A stretch of DNA of 64,000 bases from Christensenella massiliensis (GTDB lineage: Bacteria > Bacillota > Clostridia > Christensenellales > Christensenellaceae), in the NCBI GenBank assembly GCA_900155415.1, contig LT700187.1, positions 2,170,001 through 2,234,000 of the forward strand. Reading direction: 5' to 3'. Below, piece after piece: positions 2 to 12,308 of the stretch. Position numbers and translations under genes: made by a program. The notes under the pieces are model-generated. The model was given only the letters and a program-made list of their open reading frames with translations. It searched no databases and had not been told where the DNA came from. Position 1 is the first letter of the stretch. Each line of letters starts with the position of its first letter.

Positions 2-706
2 GTCGGCTATGAAGCGGGGCAGTCATGCGTGGGAGACCATTTTGCATGGTTAGTGAATAACTGTGTGCCACCACGGTATTTTGAAGAGGCAAAGGCGCAT
101 GGTATGGATATTCATGTATACCTGCAGGAAAAGGCGAGTGAGCAAAAGCCGGGAGAAAGCGGCCTTTTGGCGCTCGATTGGTGGAATGGAAACCGTAGCG
201 TACTGGTAGATGTAGACTTGACGGGCATGATGCTCGGGATGACTCTAACCACGAGGCCGGAAGAGATGTATCGCGCGCTTGTGGAAGCGACGGCATACGG
301 AACGCGAAAAATCATTGAGAATTTTGAAGAGAACGGCGTACCGGTCGATGAGTTTTATGCATCCGGCGGGATTGCGGAAAAGAGCGCGTTTGTTATGCAG
401 ATTTATGCGGACATCATCCGAAAGCCAATCAAAATTTCGGGAAGCGCGCAAGGTCCGGCGTTGGGGGCGGCGATTTTTGGCGCGGTTGCGGCAGGAAAGA
501 AAAATGGCGGGTACGACAGTGTGTATGATGCGGCCCGCATGATGGGAAAATTAAAAAATATCACGTACTTGCCCAATGAAGAAAATGCAAAGGTGTATGA
601 TAAATTGTATGCGGAATACAGCACGCTGCATGATTATTTTGGTACGGGCGGCAACGACGTGATGAAACGCTTAAAGGAAATCAAGAAAGGCGTTCAGAAT
701 GCTTGA
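2..706 (+). CDS. araB: Ribulokinase, C-terminal part (5' end outside window)
   Basis: Phosphorylates L-ribulose to L-ribulose-5-phosphate in cytosolic L-arabinose catabolism. The reading frame is open from base 2, and the visible 234 codons are the second half of an FGGY-family sugar kinase. The opening motif [15 protein letters not shown] matches the GxEAGQSAxGDIFAW signature of AraB, and the [18 protein letters not shown] segment with the following QGPALGAA motif is the FGGY C-terminal nucleotide-binding region. The start lies outside the window, so any valine or GTG inside is not taken as a start. The stop overlaps the next gene (araD) by 8 bp, so the two are co-transcribed and probably translationally coupled. 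Identification as AraB rather than another FGGY kinase rests on the AGQS motif and the araD neighbour. Confidence 0.9.
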
Positions 707-1397
707 ACAATTAAAACAGAAAGTATATGAAGCAAACATGCTCCTTCCGAAATACGGGCTGATTACGTTTACATGGGGAAACGTGTCCGGTATTGACCGT
801 GAAAAGGGACTCTTTGTCATCAAACCGTCCGGCGTGGAATATGAAAAGCTGCGTCCGGAAGACATGGTGGTAGTGGACCTTGAGGGTAAGGTGGTGGAAG
901 GAGATTTAAATCCGTCTTCGGATACGGATACGCATCTCGTGCTGTACAGACATTTCAAAAATATCGGCGGCATTACGCACACGCACTCGCGTTGGGCAAC
1001 CGCGTGGGCTCAGACAGGTAGAGGGCTTCCAGCTTATGGAACAACGCACGCGGACTACCTGTACGGTGAGGTTCCGTGCACGCGCGCGCTGACCATGGAA
1101 GAGATTAGAGGCGAGTATGAATGGAACACAGGCAAAGTGATTGTTGAAACCTTTGAAGAGTTGGATCCTGATTTGATGAACGCGGTGCTTGTGAGAAGTC
1201 ATGGGCCGTTCGTATGGGCGGAAAACGCGACGAAATCCGTGGAAAAGGCGGTCGTGTTAGACGAAGTGGCAATGATGGCGTTTGTAGGCGAAGCTGCGAC
1301 GGCCTGCGCAATGAAAGCGATTCCGCAGGAACTCCTGGATAAGCACTATTTGCGCAAGCATGGAAAGCACGCTTATTATGGACAGAAACAAGAGTAA
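699..1397 (+). CDS. araD: L-ribulose-5-phosphate 4-epimerase
   Basis: Converts L-ribulose-5-phosphate to D-xylulose-5-phosphate, which enters the pentose phosphate pathway. The 232-residue length is normal for AraD. Seen in the sequence: the phosphate-binding TWGNVSG motif (about 25-31), Asp75 in NPSSD (AraD-type acidic residue), zinc ligands His94 and His96 in HTHS, the THADYLYG loop with Asp119, and the third histidine in RSHGPF near 168. A Tyr-Tyr pair lies near the C-terminus, where E. coli AraD carries its catalytic tyrosine. It starts inside the end of araB. Since araA downstream is broken, this enzyme may now mainly serve the L-xylulose-type genes further downstream (inference). Confidence 0.95.
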
Positions 1398-2176: not shown

Positions 2177-4660
2177 CTATAAAACATGCTCGGTCCTTGC
2201 GATTATGTCATTTTGCAGGTCACGGTCAAGCGGCGCGAAGAGCGCACTGTAGCCTGCCACGCGGACCATCAGGTCTTTATACTTCTGCGGCTCTTTTTGA
2301 GCCTCTTTCAGTATATCCGCGTTGACTATATTAAACTGGATGTGCATTCCTTTTAGATCGCCGAGGAAAGTGCGTACCAGCGATATAAACTTTTGCCGTC
2401 CCGCTTGTGTATCCACAGACGCGGGACTTAGCTTCAGATTAAGCAGTGCACCACCCGATACAAGCACGGTAGGCAGTTTGCTGACCGACTTTAGAGAAGC
2501 CGTGGGCCCGTGCGTATCTGTGCCATGCATAGGAGCGGTAGTGTCTGCAAGGGGCTCTCCCGCGACACGTCCGTCAGGCGTCGCGCCTACCATCGCCCCA
2601 AACGGTACGTTGGCGGAAATGGTACTGGTGGACGGCTGCCACATGGCGCCGATAGGGCCACGACCATAACGAGTCGTCTTGTATTTTACGATTTCTTCGC
2701 AGATGAAGCGGAAATATTCGACAGTCAGCTCATCCACGTAATCGTCATCGTTACCAAATTTAGGGGCACTTACAAGGATTTGCTGAATCTCAGCACCGGT
2801 AGGCGAGGTTTCCATATCCTTGAAATTCGTATGGAGAGCATGCATAACCTGTGCAGCCGTCAGCGTTTTGTCCTCAAAAACGACTTTTTTGATGGCGGCG
2901 AGGCAGTTACCCACGTTGGCGGTGCCGATGAATTCCGGCCCGGCATAATCGTAATACATGCCGCCTTCTTTAAGGCCGCGCCCACGGCCGATACAATCCT
3001 CAATAAGCATGGAAACGAGCGGATCGCCGATATACTGCTCGGTGCATTTATCAATGATGTTGTCCCAGATGACCTGCTCGCGGATATACCATGCGCTGAA
3101 TTGCTTGATTGCCTCAAATACCTCATCGAAGGTTTTGAACGTTGTCAGGTCACCGTTGCCGGCGTGGGGGCAGATGCCCGTCCTCGGATCGACGCCGTTG
3201 TTTAACGCGACCTCGACAATCTTGCCCAAATTGATCAGACCGGAACCGTTGGGACGGTGTCCGCATTTGCCTTCGCACACGGCTTCCACACAGCCGACTA
3301 CGGAATATTCAGTCGCGTCTTCCACGGACATACCACGGTTGACAAGCGCTGGAATATAGATTTCGTCGCTGTAAAACGCGGGTTGTCCGCCGCCAAGGCG
3401 GATACAGTCAAGACACGCATGGATAAACTTGTTGGAGACACGGTCGTGGTAACGCGCGGACACGGAGGGCGTATGTAAACGGATAGCGGCTTGTGTTTCC
3501 AACACAAGGTAGGAAAGCTCGTTGGTGGCATCGTGGCCGTTTTTGTCCTGTCCGCCGATGGTAATGTTCTGGAAAAGCTGATAACCAGAAAACGATTTCT
3601 GATTGTCAAAGGTAAAAATCTTGTTCAATTGGAATAGTTTCAAAAACAAGCAGCTCAAAAGCTCCACCGCGTCGTCAGCGGATTCCAGTTCGCCGGATTC
3701 AAGGTCGTTCTTATAAAAGGGATACAGATTAGTATCCATGCGGCCGAGCGAATAGGAATGTCCGTTGTTTTCAATTTGGATAACCAGATTGATGAACCAG
3801 TACGCCTGCAGCGCTTCATGGAAAGTACGCGCGGGGTATTCAGGCACGCGGTTGCAGATTTCGGAAATCTTATAAAGTTCCGCCTTACGCTGCGGGTCAT
3901 TTTCTTTTTCACCCATCTCTTTTGCAAGCGTGGCGTAGCGGTGCGCAAAGGCGGTGATGGCATCGCACAGGATGACGCAGGATTGCAAAAACGGCAGTTG
4001 CGTCATATCGTCCGGCACGGAAAGATCAAGTGAATCAATTTTGGAGAGAGCTTGTTTTTTAAAGGAAATCAGACCCTCGTAAGCGACACGCTTTAAGTCC
4101 ACCGTCAGGTGACCGTCCGCGCCGTTCATCAGCCAGTAGGAATCGACCGCGCCGATGGCGCCTGTATTGCGAATATCGTCCGTAAGTAGCTTCTCGCAAT
4201 GCTCGGCATGCGTTTTGCCTTTCCAGAAAGGAGCCAGTTCACGTATGTTTTTTTCGTGTTCTTCGCTGATGATAAAGCGGTCGCCCTGACGTTGGTCGGG
4301 ACGCATGGGCTTGCCGTCAAGCTCGTCGATGATCCAATTAATGGAAAATTCGGGAAAGACGGGTGCGCTGCGGGGTGTGGATGCCTGGTTGCCAACCAGA
4401 AGCTCACCATCCAAAATAAAAATACTCATTTCTTCCAATACTTTTTTGAGCGCCTTGGCACGCAAGATATAAATATTTTCCCCTTCGAATTCTTGATACG
4501 CCTTGGTAACGGCTACCGCGCGCTGGGAACAAATAGTGGGAGCGGAAGCAAGCAAAAGGTTGCGCAGGTCCTCGATTCTCTTGCTGCGGTAAACAGTCTT
4601 GCCGAGAATCGAAGCATTGGTGTCCTTATATCGTTTCGTAACTTCGTCGACATATTTCAT
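2177..4660 (-). CDS. Glycyl radical enzyme, dehydratase-like (substrate unknown)
   Basis: This 827-residue member of the pyruvate formate-lyase superfamily would act in the anaerobic cytosol through a backbone glycyl radical. The radical loop RVAGYSALF (Gly803) lies 24 residues from the C-terminus, as is usual. The thiyl residue is a single Cys457 in VVGCVEA with Glu459 two residues later. That is the C-x-E arrangement of eliminating enzymes (glycerol, propanediol, choline, hydroxyproline types), not the Cys-Cys pair of pyruvate formate-lyase. His184 in GADGHLTVD matches the conserved GH of the dehydratases. Odd points: two more cysteines (462, 466) lie close to the active Cys, and Asn471 sits 14 residues after it, where glycerol dehydratase has its catalytic Asp447. 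The start at 4660 is chosen over an in-frame upstream start because AAGGAG lies 9 bp before it and the upstream codons cover the promoter. It is divergent from its activase and the pentose genes, which suggests a sugar- or polyol-derived substrate (inference). Confidence 0.9.
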   Translation of the reverse strand: MKYVDEVTKRYKDTNASILGKTVYRSKRIEDLRNLLLASAPTICSQRAVAVTKAYQEFEGENIYILRAKALKKVLEEMSIFILDGELLVGNQASTPRSAPVFPEFSINWIIDELDGKPMRPDQRQGDRFIISEEHEKNIRELAPFWKGKTHAEHCEKLLTDDIRNTGAIGAVDSYWLMNGADGHLTVDLKRVAYEGLISFKKQALSKIDSLDLSVPDDMTQLPFLQSCVILCDAITAFAHRYATLAKEMGEKENDPQRKAELYKISEICNRVPEYPARTFHEALQAYWFINLVIQIENNGHSYSLGRMDTNLYPFYKNDLESGELESADDAVELLSCLFLKLFQLNKIFTFDNQKSFSGYQLFQNITIGGQDKNGHDATNELSYLVLETQAAIRLHTPSVSARYHDRVSNKFIHACLDCIRLGGGQPAFYSDEIYIPALVNRGMSVEDATEYSVVGCVEAVCEGKCGHRPNGSGLINLGKIVEVALNNGVDPRTGICPHAGNGDLTTFKTFDEVFEAIKQFSAWYIREQVIWDNIIDKCTEQYIGDPLVSMLIEDCIGRGRGLKEGGMYYDYAGPEFIGTANVGNCLAAIKKVVFEDKTLTAAQVMHALHTNFKDMETSPTGAEIQQILVSAPKFGNDDDYVDELTVEYFRFICEEIVKYKTTRYGRGPIGAMWQPSTSTISANVPFGAMVGATPDGRVAGEPLADTTAPMHGTDTHGPTASLKSVSKLPTVLVSGGALLNLKLSPASVDTQAGRQKFISLVRTFLGDLKGMHIQFNIVNADILKEAQKEPQKYKDLMVRVAGYSALFAPLDRDLQNDIIARTEHVL

Positions 4661-4766
4661 GACAAAATTCTCCTTTTCTGAAAAATAACATTTATGAATC
4701 GCCCGGCCAAAATCCGGCGGTATTGGAAACTTACATGTGGGAAACGATAGATGTCTTCTTGTGTTG

Positions 4767-4795
4767 ATTATAGGTGCAATACGTCGGGTTGTAAA
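4767..4795 (-). promoter_or_regulatory. Sigma-A-type promoter of the glycyl radical enzyme gene
   Basis: Read on the minus strand: TTTACA (4795-4790), a 17-bp spacer and TATAAT (4772-4767). Transcription would start near 4760, about 100 bases before the chosen start codon at 4660. Confidence 0.75.
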
Positions 4796-4821
4796 CGGCA
4801 AAAAGCCTGTTTTAAGCCATT

Positions 4822-4895
4822 TTATAACAACTTTCTACTTAGGTGGGCAGAATTTATAACAACATTTCTGACATATGTTTTCCAAGTTGTTATAC
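4822..4895. promoter_or_regulatory. Three 10-bp boxes spaced 32 bp, candidate operator or activator array
   Basis: TTATAACAAC occurs at 4822-4831 and again at 4854-4863. The inverted form GTTGTTATA(c) lies at 4886-4895. Successive box starts are exactly 32 bp apart, about three helical turns, which puts the boxes on one face of the DNA. They lie upstream of the glycyl radical enzyme promoter and between the two divergent units. SorC-family regulators bind as oligomers to repeated sites, so the SorC-type protein encoded at 9088-10068 is the natural candidate (inference). Confidence 0.5.
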
Positions 4896-4931
4896 CCGTA
4901 AAATATGTTGTATTTGAATCGGAATTTAGTC

Positions 4932-4978
4932 TTGAGTTTCCGTTTTGAGTACTCTAACATATGATTTGACAAGTGTCA
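4932..4978 (+). promoter_or_regulatory. Candidate promoter with overlapping inverted repeat upstream of the activase operon
   Basis: TTGAGT (4932-4937), a 17-bp spacer and TAACAT (4955-4960) make a reasonable promoter, with initiation near 4967. An inverted repeat TGACA-AG-TGTCA covers 4967-4978, exactly where an operator would block initiation. The TTGACA inside the repeat has no good -10 element at the right distance, so it is more likely part of the operator than a second promoter. Confidence 0.45.
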
Positions 4979-5063
4979 TAAATATTGGAATCCACACTAT
5001 CATTTTTTACACGGCGCCCGAAACGATACACTTCAGATATTTTCAGAAAAAAGGAGAAATAGA

Positions 5064-5981
5064 ATGGAGAGAACGGGAAAAGTATTTAATATAGAAAAAT
5101 TCCATATCCATGACGGCGAAGGAATCCGTACGGCCGTTTTCCTGAAAGGATGCCATCTGCAGTGTCCGTGGTGCAGTAATCCGGAATCCCAGAAAACGGG
5201 CAATGAAATCGTAGTATTCGATAATCTGTGCACTGCTTGCCTGCGCTGCGAGAATCTATGCCCGCAAAAGGCGATATACCATATTGAAAATAGAATACGT
5301 ACCAACACTACGCTCTGTAATTTCTGTGGTAAATGTGTGGAAATGTGCCCTACGTCTGCGCGTCAGATCTATGGTGAAGATATGACGGTAGCGGAAGTTA
5401 TACGCGAGGTCATGGAAGATGAAATATATTACGCGCGTTCGGGCGGCGGCGTAACGGTCACCGGCGGGGAGCCGCTTTTGCAGGCGGAATTTGTGCAGGA
5501 GCTGATTGCGGCATGCAGGAGCGAATATCTGAGTGTAGCGGTAGAAACATGCGGCATTGTGAGTTGGGATAAGATGTGGATGGGGCTGGAAAACGCAGAT
5601 GAAATCCTGTTGGATATTAAGACTACGGATCCGCAGAAGACAGTAGTTATCATGCCGAACGGAAGCGACGATTATATTGGTGTTTTAAGAAACAATATCC
5701 GCAAACTAAGGCAGAAAGATAAAAATGTGATTTTCAGATGCCCGATCATCCCGGGCTTCAATGATACGAAATCCCATGTGATGTCTGTTGTCATTTGGGC
5801 GAAAGAATTTGACGTACAGCGTATTGACCTGCTCCCTTTCCATCAGTTTGGCAGGCATAAGCACCGCGCACTGGGCCTTGGCTATGTAATGGAAGATAAG
5901 AAGCAACTGCAAAACGAAGATATGGAAAATTTGAAATCTCTGATTGAACGCGCTGACCTTACATGTATAGTCGGCGGCTGA
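5064..5981 (+). CDS. Glycyl radical enzyme activase (radical SAM)
   Basis: Installs the glycyl radical on its partner enzyme by reductive cleavage of S-adenosylmethionine. The 305-residue protein carries the radical SAM cluster motif CHLQCPWC (Cys30, 34, 37). An inserted ferredoxin-like domain with two four-cysteine motifs follows (Cys56/59/62/66 and Cys85/88/91/95). This arrangement is typical of activases of the dehydratase and decarboxylase types; the short PflA of pyruvate formate-lyase lacks the insert. GGVTVTGGEPLLQ (about 130-142) is the SAM-binding GGE motif. AAGGAG lies 8 bp before the ATG. It is divergent from the glycyl radical enzyme gene, which is its evident partner, and heads the plus-strand sugar operon. 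Confidence 0.93.
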   Translation: MERTGKVFNIEKFHIHDGEGIRTAVFLKGCHLQCPWCSNPESQKTGNEIVVFDNLCTACLRCENLCPQKAIYHIENRIRTNTTLCNFCGKCVEMCPTSARQIYGEDMTVAEVIREVMEDEIYYARSGGGVTVTGGEPLLQAEFVQELIAACRSEYLSVAVETCGIVSWDKMWMGLENADEILLDIKTTDPQKTVVIMPNGSDDYIGVLRNNIRKLRQKDKNVIFRCPIIPGFNDTKSHVMSVVIWAKEFDVQRIDLLPFHQFGRHKHRALGLGYVMEDKKQLQNEDMENLKSLIERADLTCIVGG

Positions 5982-6024
5982 AAACGGTACCAAAATTCAT
6001 TTTAAATAAACGGAGGATAAAACA

Positions 6025-6660
6025 ATGTATGAGGAAGACAAAAAGGCAGTCATAGCGGCGGCGCTCGAAATGAAAGACAACAGGCTGATTACGCTTTCGG
6101 GCGGCAATGTGAGTGTCAGAAAAGAAAACGGTGACATCATTGTCACGCCATCCGGTATGAGTTATGTGGGCATGGTGCCGGACGATTTGATTGTTTATAA
6201 CAAAGAGGGTGAAATCATTGAGGGCACGCGCAAGCCGTCGGTAGATACGGTTGCCCTGCAATATATTTATGAGCATATGCCGGAAGTGAATGCAATCATC
6301 CACACGCATCAGCCCTACGCGACGGCAGTAGGCCTGATCAGCGACAAGCTGCCGGCCTGTTGCACCACGCTTTCCAACGTGGCGTTGGGGGAAGTATATG
6401 TCGCACCGTACAGCACGCCGGGCAGCCTTGAGATGGGGATACTGACTGTGGACTATTCCAAAGGAAAACGCGCCGTCATCCTGCGCCACCACGGCGTAGT
6501 TACTATTGGCGGTAACCTGAAAGAGGCACTCTATGCGGCGGTATATACGGAAGACGTTGCGCGCAGTTATCTGGCTGCCAAGGCAGCGGGCGATCCGGCG
6601 GTCATGACGGAAGAAGAAGATAGGCTCGCGGTGGAAATGTTCAGCAGGTACGGACAATAA
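6025..6660 (+). CDS. Class II aldolase/epimerase-family protein (fuculose-P aldolase or pentulose-P 4-epimerase type)
   Basis: This 211-residue zinc enzyme of the class II aldolase/adducin family would act on a ketose phosphate in the cytosol. Seen: SGGNVSVR (phosphate site, about 25-32), TPSGMSY (41-47), zinc ligands His93 and His95 in IIHTHQ, and His155 in LRHHGV. The position equivalent to the catalytic Glu73 of L-fuculose-1-P aldolase is Asp74 (KPSVDT), as in AraD epimerases. However, the THADYxxG loop that holds the second catalytic acid of AraD is missing. Aldolase or 4-epimerase activity therefore cannot be chosen from sequence alone. GGAGGA lies just before the ATG. It sits 43 bp after the activase and 10 bp before the 3-epimerase gene, in one operon. 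Confidence 0.85.
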   Translation: MYEEDKKAVIAAALEMKDNRLITLSGGNVSVRKENGDIIVTPSGMSYVGMVPDDLIVYNKEGEIIEGTRKPSVDTVALQYIYEHMPEVNAIIHTHQPYATAVGLISDKLPACCTTLSNVALGEVYVAPYSTPGSLEMGILTVDYSKGKRAVILRHHGVVTIGGNLKEALYAAVYTEDVARSYLAAKAAGDPAVMTEEEDRLAVEMFSRYGQ

Positions 6661-6670
6661 GGGGAAAGGC

Positions 6671-7528
6671 ATGGGCTTAAAAGACTGTAAGGTAGGGCTT
6701 TACGAAAAAGCTTTGCCCAAAAGCTTCGGATGGAAACAGAAAATAAAAGAGGCAAAAGCAGCTGGATACGATTTTATCGAGATCAGCATCGATGAAACGG
6801 ATGAAAAGATAGCGCGGGTCCGGTCGGGCAACCCGCAAGGCATAGAAATTAGGGAAGCGCTGCTGGAAGAGGATTTTCCCTTGCTGACGATGTGCCTGAG
6901 CGGCAACCGGCGTTTTCCAATCGGCAGCATGGACGATGGTACGCGCAATACAGGACTTGCTTTGATACGCGAGGCGGTGGATTTTGCAGTTGCGGCGGGC
7001 GTACGTATTGTGCAGCTTGCGGGTTATGACGAATATTACGGCCCGCGAAGCAAGGAAACAGAACGGCGATTTTTGGACGCGCTGCGCAGCGCGACGGAAT
7101 ATGCTGCGCAGCGTGCGGTGACGTTGGCGATTGAAAACGTGGACACCGATTTTATGAATACGCTCAGCAAAATCAAGACCTATGTCGATGAGGTGGATTC
7201 TCCGTGGCTTAAGATATACGCGGACATTGCGAATCTTACCGCCTGTGGCATGAGCATGCAGGATTTATATGAGGATATCGGCTGCGCATACACGGATACG
7301 ATCGCATGGCATGTGAAGGACGGAAAATTAAACGTCATTCGCGATACGCCGTACGGCACCGGAATTGTGGATTTCGACACATTCTTTACGTTCCTAAAAG
7401 AAAAAGAATACGCCGGATTATTCGTCATGGAAATGTGGTCGGACCAAACGGAAGAGTCCGTCCGGTATGTGCGGACTGCACGGCAGTTTTTGGAAGAGAA
7501 AATCGAGATGGCGTATGGGAAACGATAG
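6671..7528 (+). CDS. L-ribulose-5-phosphate 3-epimerase-like TIM barrel (UlaE/SgaU type)
   Basis: Likely interconverts L-xylulose-5-phosphate and L-ribulose-5-phosphate. The 285-residue length fits the UlaE family. The N-terminal GLYEKALPKSFGWKQKI is characteristic of hexulose/pentulose-phosphate 3-epimerases. The expected metal site is complete: Glu155 (LAIENVD), Asp185 (IYADIANL), His214 (AWHVKDGK) and Glu254 (VMEMW). GGGGAAAGGC precedes the ATG by a few bases. Placed between the aldolase-family gene and a kinase, it implies that an L-xylulose-type sugar is phosphorylated and then epimerised, leaving AraD (699-1397) to finish the conversion to D-xylulose-5-phosphate. Confidence 0.88.
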   Translation: MGLKDCKVGLYEKALPKSFGWKQKIKEAKAAGYDFIEISIDETDEKIARVRSGNPQGIEIREALLEEDFPLLTMCLSGNRRFPIGSMDDGTRNTGLALIREAVDFAVAAGVRIVQLAGYDEYYGPRSKETERRFLDALRSATEYAAQRAVTLAIENVDTDFMNTLSKIKTYVDEVDSPWLKIYADIANLTACGMSMQDLYEDIGCAYTDTIAWHVKDGKLNVIRDTPYGTGIVDFDTFFTFLKEKEYAGLFVMEMWSDQTEESVRYVRTARQFLEEKIEMAYGKR

Positions 7529-7548
7529 GAAGGAAGGCGGAAGAAGAT

Positions 7549-9057
7549 ATGGCGGGAAAATATTACATCGGGCTGGATAACGGCGGCAGCGTGTCCAAGG
7601 CGGGTCTATTTGATTGTGCAGGAACCGAACGCGCAGTGGCGACGGCAATCGTGCCGCAAATATTGCCACAGGCCGGTTATGTGGAGCGCGATACAAACCT
7701 GCTGTATCAGGCAAACGTGCAGTGTATTCGTGAAGTCATCAGGAAAAGCGGCGTAGAACCACGGGAAATCGGCGGCGTTTCGGTAACGGGGCACGGCAAC
7801 GGGTTATACCTGATCGGCAAGGATGGTAAGCCGTCTTATAATGGCATCATCTCAACAGATATGCGTGCTGCGGATTTGGTGGAAGCATGGCTGGATGACG
7901 GAACGTTTGATAAAATCCTGCCTAAAACAAAACAATCGTTATGGGCAGGTCAGATCGTTCCGCTTCTGAAATGGTTTTCGGTAAACAGACCGGAGGTCAT
8001 AAAGCGGTCGCGGTATGCGTTTAGCTGCAGCGACGTGATCCGTTATTTTCTGACGGGCGAGGCTTGGGGAGAGATTTCCAATATGTCGTCCATCAGCGCC
8101 ATGGACCTTGAAAAGGGTGAGTATTCACGTGAAGTGCTCACGGCCCTGGGTGTAGAAGACTGCATGCGGCTACTGCCGCCACTGCGGCGTTCGACAGATG
8201 TTTGCGGCAAGATCACGGGGCAGGTGGCGCGGGAGACAGGTCTTGAACCGGGAACAATTGTCGCGGGAGGATTGGTCGACTTTACCGCTTGCCCGATTGC
8301 CACAGGTATCGTCGACGAAACGGTGCTCAGTATTGTTGGCGGAACATGGGCGATCACCTGTTATGTGGATAAACAACCAGTTGAGGACAAGGATTTATTT
8401 ATGTCTTCTATCTATACGGTTGACGGATATTATAATATAATGGAAGGTAGCATGACGTCCGCTAGCAACTTGGAATGGTTCATCCAGAAAATACTCAAGG
8501 ATGAAAATAAAAGCAGCAAGGAATATTACGAGCTGTGCAATGAGATGGTGGATTCCAAGCAGCCGGAAGATTGCGACGTGGTATTTTTGCCGTATTTATA
8601 TGGAACGAACGCAAACCCCAAGGCAAAGGCGTGCTTTATAGGCCTTACATGTATGGACGATAAGGCAAGCATGCTGCGCGCTATTTATGAGGGTGTGGTT
8701 TTTTCCACTTGTTACCACGTGGAAAAGCTGATGGGCTACAAGAAAGATGGCGTAAAGGTCGCGCGTATATCGGGTGGCCCATCCAACTCCAGAGTATGGG
8801 TACAGATGTTCGCGGATGTGTTGGATATGCCCATCGAGGTTTGCGGGGCGGGAGAGTTGGGAACGTTGGGCGCGGCGATGTGCGCGGCGGTTGCGGATGG
8901 GCAGTTTGCAGATATGAAACAGGCGGCACAGACATGCTACCACGCCGACTATACTTGTGAACCCAACCATATGAACGTGGAAATTTATGCCCGTAAATAT
9001 AAAAAATTCAAAAAGCTGGTCGATACACTGGACGGTTATTGGTCCGTATGTGTTTGA
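7549..9057 (+). CDS. FGGY-family carbohydrate kinase, L-xylulokinase-like
   Basis: ATP-dependent sugar kinase of 502 residues. The N-terminal GLDNGGSVSKAGLFD is the phosphate-binding motif; DNGG rather than DxGT is typical of the LyxK/YoaC-like branch. GHGNGLYLIG and AGGLVDFTACP (Asp near 244, the catalytic base region) follow, with GGTWAITC around 264 and the C-terminal SGGPSNSRVWVQMFADVL signature. The ATG at 7549 is chosen over an in-frame start at 7306 because the latter lies deep inside the epimerase gene. GGAAGGCGGAAG precedes 7549. Together with the UlaE-like epimerase this gives the usual pair for L-xylulose use. The actual substrate could be another ketose. Confidence 0.88.
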   Translation: MAGKYYIGLDNGGSVSKAGLFDCAGTERAVATAIVPQILPQAGYVERDTNLLYQANVQCIREVIRKSGVEPREIGGVSVTGHGNGLYLIGKDGKPSYNGIISTDMRAADLVEAWLDDGTFDKILPKTKQSLWAGQIVPLLKWFSVNRPEVIKRSRYAFSCSDVIRYFLTGEAWGEISNMSSISAMDLEKGEYSREVLTALGVEDCMRLLPPLRRSTDVCGKITGQVARETGLEPGTIVAGGLVDFTACPIATGIVDETVLSIVGGTWAITCYVDKQPVEDKDLFMSSIYTVDGYYNIMEGSMTSASNLEWFIQKILKDENKSSKEYYELCNEMVDSKQPEDCDVVFLPYLYGTNANPKAKACFIGLTCMDDKASMLRAIYEGVVFSTCYHVEKLMGYKKDGVKVARISGGPSNSRVWVQMFADVLDMPIEVCGAGELGTLGAAMCAAVADGQFADMKQAAQTCYHADYTCEPNHMNVEIYARKYKKFKKLVDTLDGYWSVCV

Positions 9058-9087
9058 CGCAGGAGCAATAGGGCGGTGAGAACGTAA

Positions 9088-10068
9088 GTGGACGGTAAGA
9101 ACGACATCCAGATCATGGTGCAGTGCGCCAAAATGTATTATACGGAAAAGATGACGCAGGCGGAAATTGCTAAAAAGTTAGGAATTTCGCGTTCCGGCGT
9201 GTCGATGATGCTTTCGGAAGCGATGGAGAATGGGATCATTGAAATCAATATCAAGGACCCATACGCCAACAACGATTCGCTTTCGGGCATCTTTAAGGAC
9301 CGCTTTCACCTTGATGACTGCCGTGTCATACCGACCAACGTGACCAGTGAGGAAATGCTCATCCGAATCGTTTCCTCGCAAGGCGGGTTGCTCGCGTCTA
9401 AGATACTCAAAAGTCATTCCGCCCTTGGTATTGCATGGGGACGGATGTGCTATGAATTTATGCAATCCTTTCCAATCAGTAAAGATATCTACGATGTGAA
9501 CGTAGTGCCGCTTTTAGGTGGCTCTAACCGTGTAGGTATGGAATATCAGCTCAACGAAACGGTGCGTATGTTCGCGGAAAAGCTGCATGGCACGCCGTCA
9601 TTTATCTATGCACCCGCAATTGTAGAGACGATTGCGGACCGCGCGCTTTACATGCAGAGCGTATATATGCAGTCTATCGTGGAAAAATGGGCGAATATCG
9701 ATTTTGCCGTAATATCGGCAGGTGCGCCGCCGAACTATTACGAAAATAATATGCAAGTTCCATTGGACCGCATGATTGATATGATTAATGAGAATTATGG
9801 GAAGCCGGTAGGCGATATTTGCGCTTTCCGTATTAATATCAAGGGCGAATTCGTCAATAATGATTATAACAGCCGTATCATCGGTATCGGTGAGGAATAT
9901 CTGAAAAAGGCGGGTAAGGTAATGGGGATTATTGCTGGAGAATACAGGGCGCTTTCCGCCATCGGCGTACTTAATACCGGATTGCTTAATTATCTGGTGA
10001 TCGATGAGAGAACCGCGCAGCGCGTACTGGAAATTTTAGACAGAAAACTCATTCATTGCTTGCAGTGA
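9088..10068 (+). CDS. SorC/DeoR-type sugar-binding transcriptional regulator
   Basis: The 326-residue regulator has an N-terminal helix-turn-helix (about 18-45, MTQAEIAKKLGISRSGVSM) and a C-terminal sugar-phosphate-binding domain of the SorC family. GIAWGRMCYEF (about 114) and the GIIAGEYRALSAIGVLNTG region near the C-terminus are typical. It starts with GTG at 9088, with GGTGAG 7 bp upstream. It is the last gene of the activase operon, 30 bp after the kinase, so it most likely controls this operon and the divergent glycyl radical enzyme gene, with the ketose phosphate as signal (inference). The repeated boxes at 4822-4895 and the inverted repeat at 4967 are candidate sites. Confidence 0.88.
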   Translation: MDGKNDIQIMVQCAKMYYTEKMTQAEIAKKLGISRSGVSMMLSEAMENGIIEINIKDPYANNDSLSGIFKDRFHLDDCRVIPTNVTSEEMLIRIVSSQGGLLASKILKSHSALGIAWGRMCYEFMQSFPISKDIYDVNVVPLLGGSNRVGMEYQLNETVRMFAEKLHGTPSFIYAPAIVETIADRALYMQSVYMQSIVEKWANIDFAVISAGAPPNYYENNMQVPLDRMIDMINENYGKPVGDICAFRINIKGEFVNNDYNSRIIGIGEEYLKKAGKVMGIIAGEYRALSAIGVLNTGLLNYLVIDERTAQRVLEILDRKLIHCLQ

Positions 10069-10102
10069 AGAAAATTTTAAGGCCGGAGGCCCTAAGAACG
10101 GT

Positions 10103-11200
10103 ATGGACGACAGCAGTAAAAATTTTAATTTTAAGTATATTATCCTCAAACAATGGATCGTGGATAATATCAAAAACAAAACCTTCCGGCAAGGAGATAA
10201 ATTGCCGTCCGAGAATTTGTTGTGTCGGAAATTCGGGATCAGCAGGCAGACGGTGAGGAATGCAATGGCGCAATTGAGCGAGGAGGGTGTAGTTAAAAAG
10301 GTACGCGGAAGCGGGATGTACGTCAACAAAACATTCGCGGCTGCTACGTCCAAAACAGTCGGGATCTTGATTAGTTATTTAAACGAATATATATTCAAGC
10401 ATATTTTCAAGGAGATCGAAACGGTATTAAAGCTCGAGGGATACGAAATCGACCTTTGCATTTCTGAAAACAGGATTGAGCAGGAACGCGGTTTTCTGGA
10501 GCGTATGTATCATTCGGATGTTGCGGGGCTGATCATCGAGGGAACACGCTCTGCGCTACCCAATCCGAATATCGAATATTACCGCAAGCTGGAAGAAAAG
10601 GAAGTTCCTTTCCTGTTTATCCATAATTATTACAGTGACGTGAAATGTCCGAGTATTCTGATGGACGACATTGGAGCATCCAAAAAAATGACGCAAATGC
10701 TCATTGAAGCAGGACATACCGATATTGCGGGAATTTTCAAGGGAGACGATTTGCAGGGACACAGGCGTTACTTGGGATACGTACAGGCACTTGGTGAAGC
10801 GGGCATTCCCGTACGCGAGGAACTAATTGGCTGGTTTTATTCTAATTATGATAATAATATCCTGTTGGAAATCAGTATCAAGGCCATTCTTGACACGCTC
10901 GATTATTATACGGCGATGATCGCTTATAACGACTTGATTGCGTTGGAGATCAACAGGTTTTACGTGCAAAATGGAATCAGCATCCCAAGGAATGTTTCGA
11001 TGGTCAGCTTCGACGATGGCGCAGCGTCTAGTAATCTGGGGATCATTTCAGCCAAACACCCCAAAAAGATGCTGGGTATTGAAGCGGCAATGCGTATATT
11101 GCGTATGATACGCGAGGGCAGGGACGCGATTCCTCCTGTGCCGTATGTGATTAATACGGAACTTGCGCTGCGGGATTCTATTAAAAAAATTGCCAGATAA
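10103..11200 (+). CDS. araR: AraR-type repressor (GntR helix-turn-helix fused to LacI-type sugar-binding domain)
   Basis: The 365-residue chimeric regulator has a GntR winged helix in residues 8-75 (GDKLPSENLLCRKFGISRQ, then TVRNAMAQLSEEGVV). A LacI/GalR-like periplasmic-binding fold starts near VGILISYLNEYIF (about 88) and ends with the effector-binding VSMVSFDDG and LALRDSIKK segments. This fusion defines AraR, the L-arabinose repressor of Firmicutes. It follows the SorC regulator by 34 bp. Its presence next to a broken araA suggests it controlled the araBD-araA remnant operon; whether it still regulates it, or has moved to the L-pentulose genes, cannot be told from sequence. The symbol is by domain architecture and neighbourhood. 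Confidence 0.8.
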   Translation: MDDSSKNFNFKYIILKQWIVDNIKNKTFRQGDKLPSENLLCRKFGISRQTVRNAMAQLSEEGVVKKVRGSGMYVNKTFAAATSKTVGILISYLNEYIFKHIFKEIETVLKLEGYEIDLCISENRIEQERGFLERMYHSDVAGLIIEGTRSALPNPNIEYYRKLEEKEVPFLFIHNYYSDVKCPSILMDDIGASKKMTQMLIEAGHTDIAGIFKGDDLQGHRRYLGYVQALGEAGIPVREELIGWFYSNYDNNILLEISIKAILDTLDYYTAMIAYNDLIALEINRFYVQNGISIPRNVSMVSFDDGAASSNLGIISAKHPKKMLGIEAAMRILRMIREGRDAIPPVPYVINTELALRDSIKKIAR

Positions 11201-12308
11201 ATTATAAAGTGTAACCAGCGAGGCTACCGCAAAAAGGCGGATTTTTATATGTAGGTGGAATACCGATAAAGGTAATGGAAAGCTGTTGCCGCTGTGTGTA
11301 ATTGACCGTTTATCCGATACCGCCGCCGGATGTTAGGCAGGCTGAACCTTTGTTTGCGTAGTGTGCGGGAGTATATAAACCAGCCGTATTGGATAGATGA
11401 TAGTATTCTTATTTCCAGTACAATGGAACAAATAACAGATTAGCACCCCGCGCCATACTACAGCAAGAGACATCTCGAACCTGTGCTATTTTGATATGGG
11501 TGCAGACAATTCCGTAGCTATTACGAACAATGTGGGCAAACCATGCCTCCTGTTCAAGGGAGCATTGTGAAATCTATCAACCAACGGTATAACAAACAGA
11601 TAGCCCGCATTATAAGTGAGCGGACTTCTGATTCCAAGGTAAAGCTATTATGACACCGGAAATCAATTTGTTATGCCTGAAGCGAGATAATCAAATTAGC
11701 GATTTAATGCACAAAACGACCAGAAGTATTGTTCAGTGGTGCGTGTCGGCAACAATATTGATATCCTTGCCATTGGTAAAATAAGATTTTGGAAGCTTGA
11801 AAGCAGAAAACGGAAATATTCTAAACTTCTATTTTCCATGGATTGATAATACCGTTCTCGTCAAGGGCATAAATGCGATTGCGTTTTCTGGCGGGCTCTT
11901 TCCCAAAATGCAAAGTAATTGACCAAAAGGGATACAAGAGGAAACAGGTGGTGCTTTATTTCTATTCAAGATACAGATCTATCCCAAATGACTGGGAGCG
12001 GGAATCGCGATCAATATGCTGACAACCGGAAAATTAAATCATCATAGCATATATCCTGGCATATAATGGTCGCATTTAAAAGATATCAAGAAACGGATAG
12101 AGAAGCTGCCGCTGGCGGCTTTTCTGTTTGCTAAATAATAGCGTATGGTTTATTATAAATAAGTCGGACATAGAAATTTTATGTTAGCTTGAATGCTGTC
12201 TCGACAGTTTATGTGATTTAATAAAGAAAATGGACAGAGCCAGTACAGAAGCAAAAGCGCCTGAAAAGAAATGTGTCTGACGCATTTTTTGTTATGTTAT
12301 ATAGATTT
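11201..12308. other. 1.1-kb stretch of decayed DNA
   Basis: No intact gene of useful length is present on either strand. A weak CCGC/GCGG hairpin with a T-run (11226-11246) could end araR transcription. A tnpB remnant lies at 11487-11785. A hairpin AGCTGCC/GGCGGCT followed by TTTT is at about 12103-12124, and another followed by six T at 12270-12293. The rest contains short, stop-riddled frames without recognisable families. Confidence 0.6.
11487..11785 (+). pseudogene. tnpB: Remnant of an IS200/IS605-type tnpB (RNA-guided nuclease of transposon origin)
   Basis: Frame-shifted translation recovers the TnpB core. First comes YFDMGADNSVAITNNVGKPC followed by LLFKG, the family motif around the first RuvC aspartate. 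After a frame change at about 11565 it reads IVKSINQRYNKQIARII, then SERTSDSKVKLL. After another frame change it reads NQISDLMHKTTRSIVQWCV and NNIDILAIGK, matching the helix before the second catalytic residue. The N-terminal domain, zinc ribbon and final RuvC part are not found, and stops interrupt every frame. No tnpA is visible. It is an inactive relic. Confidence 0.8.

Follow-up and report, generated by a model that had tools for sequence, protein, structure and literature searches.

A glycyl radical enzyme of the YbiW lineage linked to sugar genes in Christensenella massiliensis, with a predicted role in C5 sugar or polyol metabolism

Christensenella species are widespread gut anaerobes. 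In the genome of Christensenella massiliensis, we analysed a small gene cluster in which a glycyl radical enzyme (GRE) and its activase stand together with a class II aldolase/epimerase-family enzyme, a 3-epimerase, a kinase and a SorC-family regulator. The cluster lies in a stretch of 64,000 nucleotides (the whole stretch analysed, hereafter "the window"), which covers bases 2,170,001-2,234,000 of the 2.56 Mb single-contig genome. The GRE retains its catalytic residues, belongs to the YbiW side of the GRE tree, and is found beside the same sugar genes in other genomes. From these sequence features, the cluster appears to be a new branch of GRE sugar metabolism with predicted chemistry. We tentatively propose that the GRE performs the first step of an anaerobic C5 sugar or polyol pathway, for which we infer both the substrate and the order of the steps; this seems plausible, although somewhat short of an even chance.

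All six proteins named in the initial annotation of this DNA (the GRE, activase, class II enzyme, 3-epimerase, kinase and SorC regulator) are present with open frames. The cluster spans positions 2177-10068, with the GRE on the minus strand and the other five genes on the plus strand, where successive genes from the activase to SorC are separated by 10-43 bp. The GRE was called from the ATG at 4660, which has a good ribosome-binding site, and a TTG start at 4801 was rejected as too far upstream. The features are as follows.

2177-4660, minus strand: GRE of the YbiW-side lineage, 827 aa, with Cys457, Glu459 and Gly803 (PFL-like and Gly_radical domains, TIGR01774, trees and approximately unbiased (AU) test, AlphaFold2 (AF2) model)
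4661-5063, no strand: divergent control region between the GRE and the activase, with three TATAACAAC sites
5064-5981, plus strand: GRE-activating radical SAM enzyme with 4Fe-4S ferredoxin motifs (TIGR02494, Radical_SAM, Fer4, CX3CX2C motif)
6025-6660, plus strand: class II aldolase/epimerase-family enzyme (PF00596; residues compared with FucA and AraD)
6671-7528, plus strand: predicted UlaE/SgbU-type L-xylulose-5-phosphate 3-epimerase (TIGR00542, PDB match 3cqh, 40% identity to E. coli UlaE)
7549-9057, plus strand: FGGY kinase, LyxK (L-xylulose kinase)-like (PF00370/PF02782; comparison with E. coli kinases)
9088-10068, plus strand: SorC-family sugar-responsive regulator (PF04198; 47% identity to its counterpart at the C. 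hongkongensis cluster)
10103-11200, plus strand: AraR-like GntR/LacI regulator, 34 bp past SorC, of uncertain membership in the cluster (GntR and Peripla_BP_3; same place in a near relative, G001)
699-1397, plus strand: AraD of the adjoining arabinose operon, counted as a neighbour only (NF006047)

The GRE has all the features of its superfamily: a PFL-like barrel (658 bits, Pfam cut-off 24.3), a C-terminal glycyl radical domain (Gly_radical, 101 bits, cut-off 22.2), the catalytic cysteine, and RVxGY. Its catalytic residues are Cys457-Val-Glu459, and the glycyl radical residue is Gly803. The activase encoded alongside it scores 309 bits on TIGR02494 (cut-off 174) and carries a CHLQCPWC motif. 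The initial description of the GRE as dehydratase-type holds at the broad level of the PFL2/glycerol dehydratase family (TIGR01774, 801 bits, cut-off 678) but not at a finer one, as every substrate-specific NCBIfam GRE model that it matched was far below its cut-off. The scores, given as bits/cut-off, were 608/1000 for sulfopropanediol dehydratase, 586/1109 for the PflD-type model NF007437, 575/1100 for HypD, 573/1050 for CutC, 458/1100 for indoleacetate decarboxylase, 345/1150 for hydroxyphenylacetate decarboxylase, and 138/994 for PFL. The choline, hydroxyproline, sulfopropanediol, aryl-acetate, PflD-type and PFL families were ruled out by these curated cut-offs.

Phylogenetic analysis (54-row tree) placed the window GRE within a clade of nine Christensenellaceae sequences (support 100/100). 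Its sister is the GRE of a Nitrososphaeria archaeon metagenome-assembled genome (L035; 48% identity, support 100/98), and together they group towards YbiW and apart from the glycerol/propanediol dehydratases. The window GRE and E. coli YbiW form separate clades on this side of the tree, within which the branching is unsure: the 54-row tree joins the nine-sequence clade first to the YbiW group (81/76), and a second tree joins it first to a Christensenellaceae-rich group (L022, L023, L025, L027 and L028; 95 in the Shimodaira-Hasegawa-like approximate likelihood ratio test, SH-aLRT) and then to the YbiW group (98). A constrained tree that united the nine sequences with the glycerol/diol dehydratase group (ten rows; L038 and L045 tie it to 1r8w and 5i2a) was 138 log units worse (p-AU 9.7e-9). 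The loop sequence is in line with this placement. After GCVE, the window GRE reads GHRPNG instead of the WHD-type loop of diol dehydratases (whose Asp we take to be Asp447 of 1r9d, in number and in role), and this is nearer to GYRCTG of YbiW. An identity as glycerol/propanediol dehydratase was ruled out by the rejected joint clade and the absent loop motif. The tight clustering with a characterised family that the initial annotation had allowed for was not found, and the GRE lies outside every such family tested.

The clade is also rare. In the order- and phylum-wide searches, which scored up to two candidates per genome, at least five of 396 genomes of the order matched at E ≤ 1e-230, all of them from Christensenella or from a single further genus of the same family. 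The phylum-wide set comprised 398 genomes, and there the best listed matches apart from the window's own had 46-47% identity. The position of the archaeal sequence as sister to the Christensenellaceae clade suggests either transfer between domains or a binning error. An activase adjoins this archaeal GRE; no sugar gene was recognised there by eye, and none of the context families was present.

The link between the GRE and the sugar genes is well supported and looks functional, because in C. hongkongensis (G005) the five genes form one run on one strand: GRE (61% identity), activase (48%), kinase (40%), class II enzyme (63%) and epimerase (39%), with a divergent SorC (47%). The near relative G001 has the same arrangement as the window at 91-99% identity. 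When 18 genomes were searched, the kinase (E ≤ 1e-60) matched in three, namely the window's genome (G000), G001 and G005, where a second match (31%) sits on another contig; the epimerase (E ≤ 1e-30) matched in the same three and in G004, where the copy lies in a stretch without a GRE. The three genomes with both matches are exactly the three with the GRE cluster. The initial annotation had asked whether relatives of the GRE occur beside sugar genes elsewhere, and the same kinds of sugar genes do adjoin them in other genomes. An FGGY kinase lies within 7 kb of seven of the nine clade members, the two others being L020 and L021. By eye, L020 has a PfkB-looking gene 2.7 kb away, nearer to a second GRE.

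The association was further assessed by a circular-shift test on four near-complete Christensenella genomes (G000, G001, G002 and G004; the drafts G003 and G005 were left out), using 17 of 19, 14 of 15, 17 of 22 and 13 of 15 FGGY rows, respectively, and a rounded length for G002. An FGGY kinase was within 4 kb of 7 of the 30 GRE genes vs a mean of 1.6 after shifting, and seven or more were reached in a fraction of 0.0014 of 20,000 shifts.

Sister clusters of the genus and family combine the same GRE type with xylulokinase/ribulokinase-like FGGY kinases and ribulose-phosphate 3-epimerases. Four of these (L016-L019, which with L020 and L021 are the further members of the GRE clade) pair the GRE and activase with another type of FGGY kinase and a ribulose-phosphate 3-epimerase; in the pairs compared, their kinases are 63-95% alike mutually and to a second C. 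hongkongensis kinase. SorC with an rbs-type ABC importer is present in three of the four; a zinc-type polyol-dehydrogenase-like gene is present in three. The class II enzyme has a second association with a GRE: its G004 orthologue (59-60%) adjoins a very different one, 36-38% identical to that of the window. This locus has an FGGY kinase and SorC as well, plus an ABC importer and a D-lyxose/D-mannose isomerase homologue.

Two of the partner enzymes are well typed. The initial assignment of an L-xylulokinase-like kinase agrees with a comparison against six E. coli FGGY kinases, in which LyxK was the best match (36%, 319 bits), ahead of LsrK (139 bits) and XylB (92 bits); identity to LsrK, XylB, FucK, AraB and RhaB was 25% or less. 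The NCBIfam matches of the kinase include no LyxK model, and the XylB model scored 221 bits, under its cut-off of 380. The 3-epimerase, likewise as first proposed, passes the UlaE-type model TIGR00542 (281.6 bits, cut-off 272.15) and, by this cut-off, is predicted to be a UlaE/SgbU-type L-xylulose-5-phosphate 3-epimerase. UlaE (3cqh, E 2.8e-68) was its sole solved-structure match at E ≤ 1e-10.

The class II enzyme is about equally distant from FucA (31%) and AraD (32%), and far below the cut-offs of both models (AraD, TIGR00760: 99.9 bits, cut-off 389.1; FucA, TIGR01086: 99.6 bits, cut-off 400.25). Judged with residue roles that we take to be those of AraD Asp120, His218 and Tyr229, FucA Glu73 and the zinc histidines, it keeps the zinc histidines and has Asp, as in AraD, where FucA has Glu73. 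It has Asn at the position of AraD Asp120 and lacks the C-terminal His218 loop, and on these grounds we predict, with moderate confidence, that it is an aldolase rather than an AraD-type 4-epimerase. Its C-terminal end reads YGQ in the window and CGQ in C. hongkongensis. The stretches around more distant class II homologues (L101-L104; 42-52%) held no match to the window GRE, and do not fix the substrate.

Established GRE eliminations convert HO-CHR-CHR'-X to O=CR-CH2R' and X, so the product of the GRE should be a deoxy carbonyl compound. As the enzymes to follow would be a LyxK-like kinase and a UlaE-type epimerase, a deoxyketopentose would fit better than a small diol. Activases of this family form the glycyl radical. 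Here, the activase would generate it at Gly803, from where the radical would move to Cys457. The substrate would be a C5 polyol or anhydropolyol that carries no phosphate, and Cys457 would abstract a hydrogen atom from one of its carbinol carbons. Glu459 would accept the hydroxyl proton, and the neighbouring C-O bond (to a hydroxyl, or to a ring oxygen as in YbiW) would be expelled to give a deoxyketose. Going by the enzyme families, the LyxK-like kinase may then phosphorylate the deoxyketose at its far end, after which the UlaE-type enzyme would invert C3 and the class II enzyme would cut the C3-C4 bond. One concrete form of the pathway would have the GRE open an unphosphorylated 1,4- or 1,5-anhydropentitol, or dehydrate a pentitol, to a 1-deoxyketopentose such as 1-deoxy-L-xylulose, which would then pass to the kinase, the epimerase and class II cleavage; in exactly this form it is unlikely to be right.

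The GRE is placed before the kinase because FGGY kinases take open-chain ketoses and polyols, and because of a split on the tree between GREs with and without the His motif of YbiW. Where YbiW and its close relatives have an SHSK/SHTR-type stretch, the window GRE reads FDNQK. Among the 28 rows of the YbiW side, 8 of 13 rows with the His motif have a ROK or phosphotransferase system (PTS) gene near, two of these also an FGGY gene, and none has FGGY alone. An FGGY gene is near 8 of the 15 rows without the motif, two of them also with ROK, and none of the 15 has ROK or PTS alone. ROK or PTS stands for phosphorylation of the substrate first. The split is a hint, without statistical support, as the tree contains only one independent pair. 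Two His-bearing rows outside the 28-row group (L020_14945 and L076) have no ROK, PTS or FGGY gene near.

Several observations weigh against placing the GRE at the head of a C5 pathway. The predicted structure (AF2, predicted local distance difference test score, pLDDT, 92.5; closest folds 6xs4, YbiW and diol dehydratases) matches YbiW-type GREs and diol dehydratases about equally. The C. hongkongensis GRE has NGFAVS where others read NGHSYS; the window GRE keeps the catalytic Cys and Glu, NGHS and RVAGY. The full gene set is carried by only two independent cluster types. Finally, no importer was recognised by eye in the window cluster. The absence of transport genes that was noted initially therefore stands for this cluster but not for its relatives, since many of their GRE clusters carry an rbs-type ABC importer.

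Alternatively, the kinase might come first and the GRE work on a C5 compound that is already phosphorylated, by analogy with YbiW and 1,5-anhydroglucitol-6-phosphate. A published account (PMC12441222) describes YbiW and PflD as starting from a PTS-made phosphate, and as cleaving 1,5-anhydroglucitol-6-phosphate or 1,5-anhydromannitol-6-phosphate to 1-deoxyfructose-6-phosphate. The titles of two PDB entries name YbiW with 1,5-anhydroglucitol-6-phosphate (8id7) and PflD with 1,5-anhydromannitol-6-phosphate (8id0). Of these two E. coli references, YbiW is nearer to the window GRE (40% identity vs 36% for PflD), and it takes a phosphorylated substrate, which speaks for this order of steps. The FDNQK stretch and the preference of the kinase family for open-chain substrates point the other way; neither is decisive, and a role of the His in phosphate binding is a supposition. 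Overall, we consider action after the kinase unlikely.

It is doubtful that the GRE acts last, as a small-diol dehydratase of the kind found in fucose and rhamnose fermentation. In such a route, the sugar phosphate would be split, the aldehyde reduced elsewhere to ethylene glycol or 1,2-propanediol, and the diol dehydrated by the GRE. FucA-type class II aldolases do yield an aldehyde that is reduced to a diol, and glycerol/propanediol dehydratases match the GRE about as well as the YbiW group does, by sequence as well as by fold: the closest solved structures by sequence are 6xs4 (E 1.9e-193), YbiW (2e-192) and glycerol dehydratase (4.5e-192). Set against this are the rejected joint clade and the GHRPNG loop. 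In addition, inspection of the open reading frames by eye revealed no aldehyde or alcohol dehydrogenase in the cluster, as originally noted, nor in that of C. hongkongensis. The originally noted lack of microcompartment shell genes extends to the whole genome, which has no BMC match; such genes are present in 5 of the 12 genomes searched, the closest to any GRE at about 33 kb. A microcompartment locus was ruled out, as the window's genome holds no shell gene.

The initial annotation had instead read the kinase and epimerases as a route from an L-ketopentose to D-xylulose-5-phosphate, with AraD nearby, which the GRE might feed or drain by dehydrating a pentitol, a sugar acid or a deoxy-sugar product. 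We weighed this as an L-xylulose/L-lyxose route through AraD, with an unmodified ketopentose as its link to the GRE. The LyxK-like kinase, the UlaE-type epimerase and an AraD 4.6 kb from the class II gene would suit this, but known GRE eliminations yield deoxy products and not plain ketoses. The 4-epimerase end of the route found no support, given a class II enzyme so far under the AraD cut-off and devoid of Asp120 and the His218 loop; from its residues, a route to D-xylulose-5-phosphate via this enzyme was set aside as unlikely. The AraD next door (NF006047, 379.7 bits, cut-off 257; TIGR00760, 371.9 vs 389.1) has an open gene and belongs to a decayed arabinose operon, in which AraB enters from the window edge and an araA relic lies at 1402-1840, between araD and the GRE. 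The pieces of the relic match residues 1-6, 102-132 and ~367-494 of the intact araA in G001. The surroundings of the C. hongkongensis cluster showed no araD. We regard the whole scheme as improbable. A merely accidental proximity of the GRE/activase pair to the sugar genes, which the divergent GRE in the window might suggest, is very improbable, given that C. hongkongensis has these genes in one run on a single strand, that three genomes share the set, and that FGGY kinases stand beside seven of nine clade members.

Returning to a GRE that acts first on a C5 compound, a further downstream step can be imagined. An acetoin/pyruvate-dehydrogenase-like E1 gene lies 6.5 kb from the GRE in C. hongkongensis (L015) and 7.3 kb from it in L019, and we speculate that such a complex might split 1-deoxyketose phosphates, yielding acetyl-CoA and an aldose phosphate. 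Five places have an E1 gene no more than 10 kb from a GRE, but E1_dh matches are numerous in the genus (16 in G005).

From its position, the SorC regulator would control the divergent promoters between the GRE and the activase. This intergenic region of ~400 bp contains TATAACAAC sites at 4823, 4855 and 4886 (the last reversed), all within 72 bp. With up to one mismatch, the 12-mer pattern has seven matches in the window vs 1.09 expected. The region is conserved in the G001 cluster (L014), where two exact sites remain. No exact copy was found in the C. hongkongensis stretch L015, and the pattern was dropped as an operator common to both clusters.

GREs are numerous in some members of the genus, with 16 PFL-like matches in G004 and nine each in G001 and G005, against three in the window's genome. 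Many of them adjoin ABC sugar importers, ROK or FGGY kinases, ribulose-phosphate 3-epimerases, or D-lyxose/D-mannose isomerase homologues. Isomerase homologues of this type adjoin GREs outside the window clade in L072, L073, L074 and L078; the one in L073 matches PDB 7nzo (E 5.6e-59). The second GRE of the window's genome (L032, G000:C1:1116000-1135900; GRE at 9242-11626) stands with an rbs-type ABC importer, an activase, short-chain-dehydrogenase-like genes and Dak1 (dihydroxyacetone kinase), and this locus is likely another radical sugar or polyol cluster. The third (L033, G000:C1:1411000-1430900), 34% identical to the window GRE, is ~4-8 kb from E1/E2/E3 acetoin-/pyruvate-dehydrogenase-like genes. 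Tandem GREs occur in L067 and L071, from two genomes of a further genus in the phylum. One GRE is of the PflD branch and the other of the YbiW side, and the genes near them include one FGGY and one ROK kinase, a ribulose-phosphate 3-epimerase and an ABC importer. One GRE copy in G004 (G004:C1:206941-209364) has an in-frame TGA and may be a decayed gene or reflect a sequencing error.

If the proposed role of the GRE is correct, radical C-O cleavage would be a general entry to sugar and polyol catabolism, beyond the 1,5-anhydrohexitols. A radical route for pentoses or pentitols would imply a family of radical sugar pathways, of which YbiW and PflD of E. coli are one corner. Being small and having two well-typed partners, the LyxK-like kinase and the UlaE-like epimerase, the window cluster should be among the easier GRE clusters to solve, and is readily testable.

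Among known systems, YbiW/PflD of E. coli resembles the cluster in having a GRE and activase among sugar genes. YbiW is the nearest characterised relative by sequence and lies on the same side of the tree; GCVE/GCIE, the Gly radical, NGHS and the GKxGxR loop of the window GRE are common to these enzymes. The window GRE differs from YbiW in its clade and in lacking the YbiW-type His motif. Its cluster has an FGGY kinase, a class II aldolase-type enzyme and a UlaE-type epimerase, whereas both E. coli loci have an FSA-type aldolase, of which there is none within 7 kb of the window GRE. The B12-independent glycerol/1,2-propanediol dehydratases share the fold and the catalytic Cys, Glu and Gly, but the window GRE is in a separate clade, without the WHD-type loop, and in a genome without shell genes. 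UlaDEF and YiaK-SgbE of E. coli (L-ascorbate and 2,3-diketo-L-gulonate) similarly bring together a LyxK-like kinase, a UlaE/SgbU-type 3-epimerase and a class II enzyme. Unlike them, the window cluster has no recognised decarboxylase, PTS or TRAP transporter, its class II enzyme departs from AraD in the catalytic residues, and it adds a GRE and its activase. A search of one collection of papers returned no paper pairing "glycyl radical" with "ulaE" or with "lyxK".

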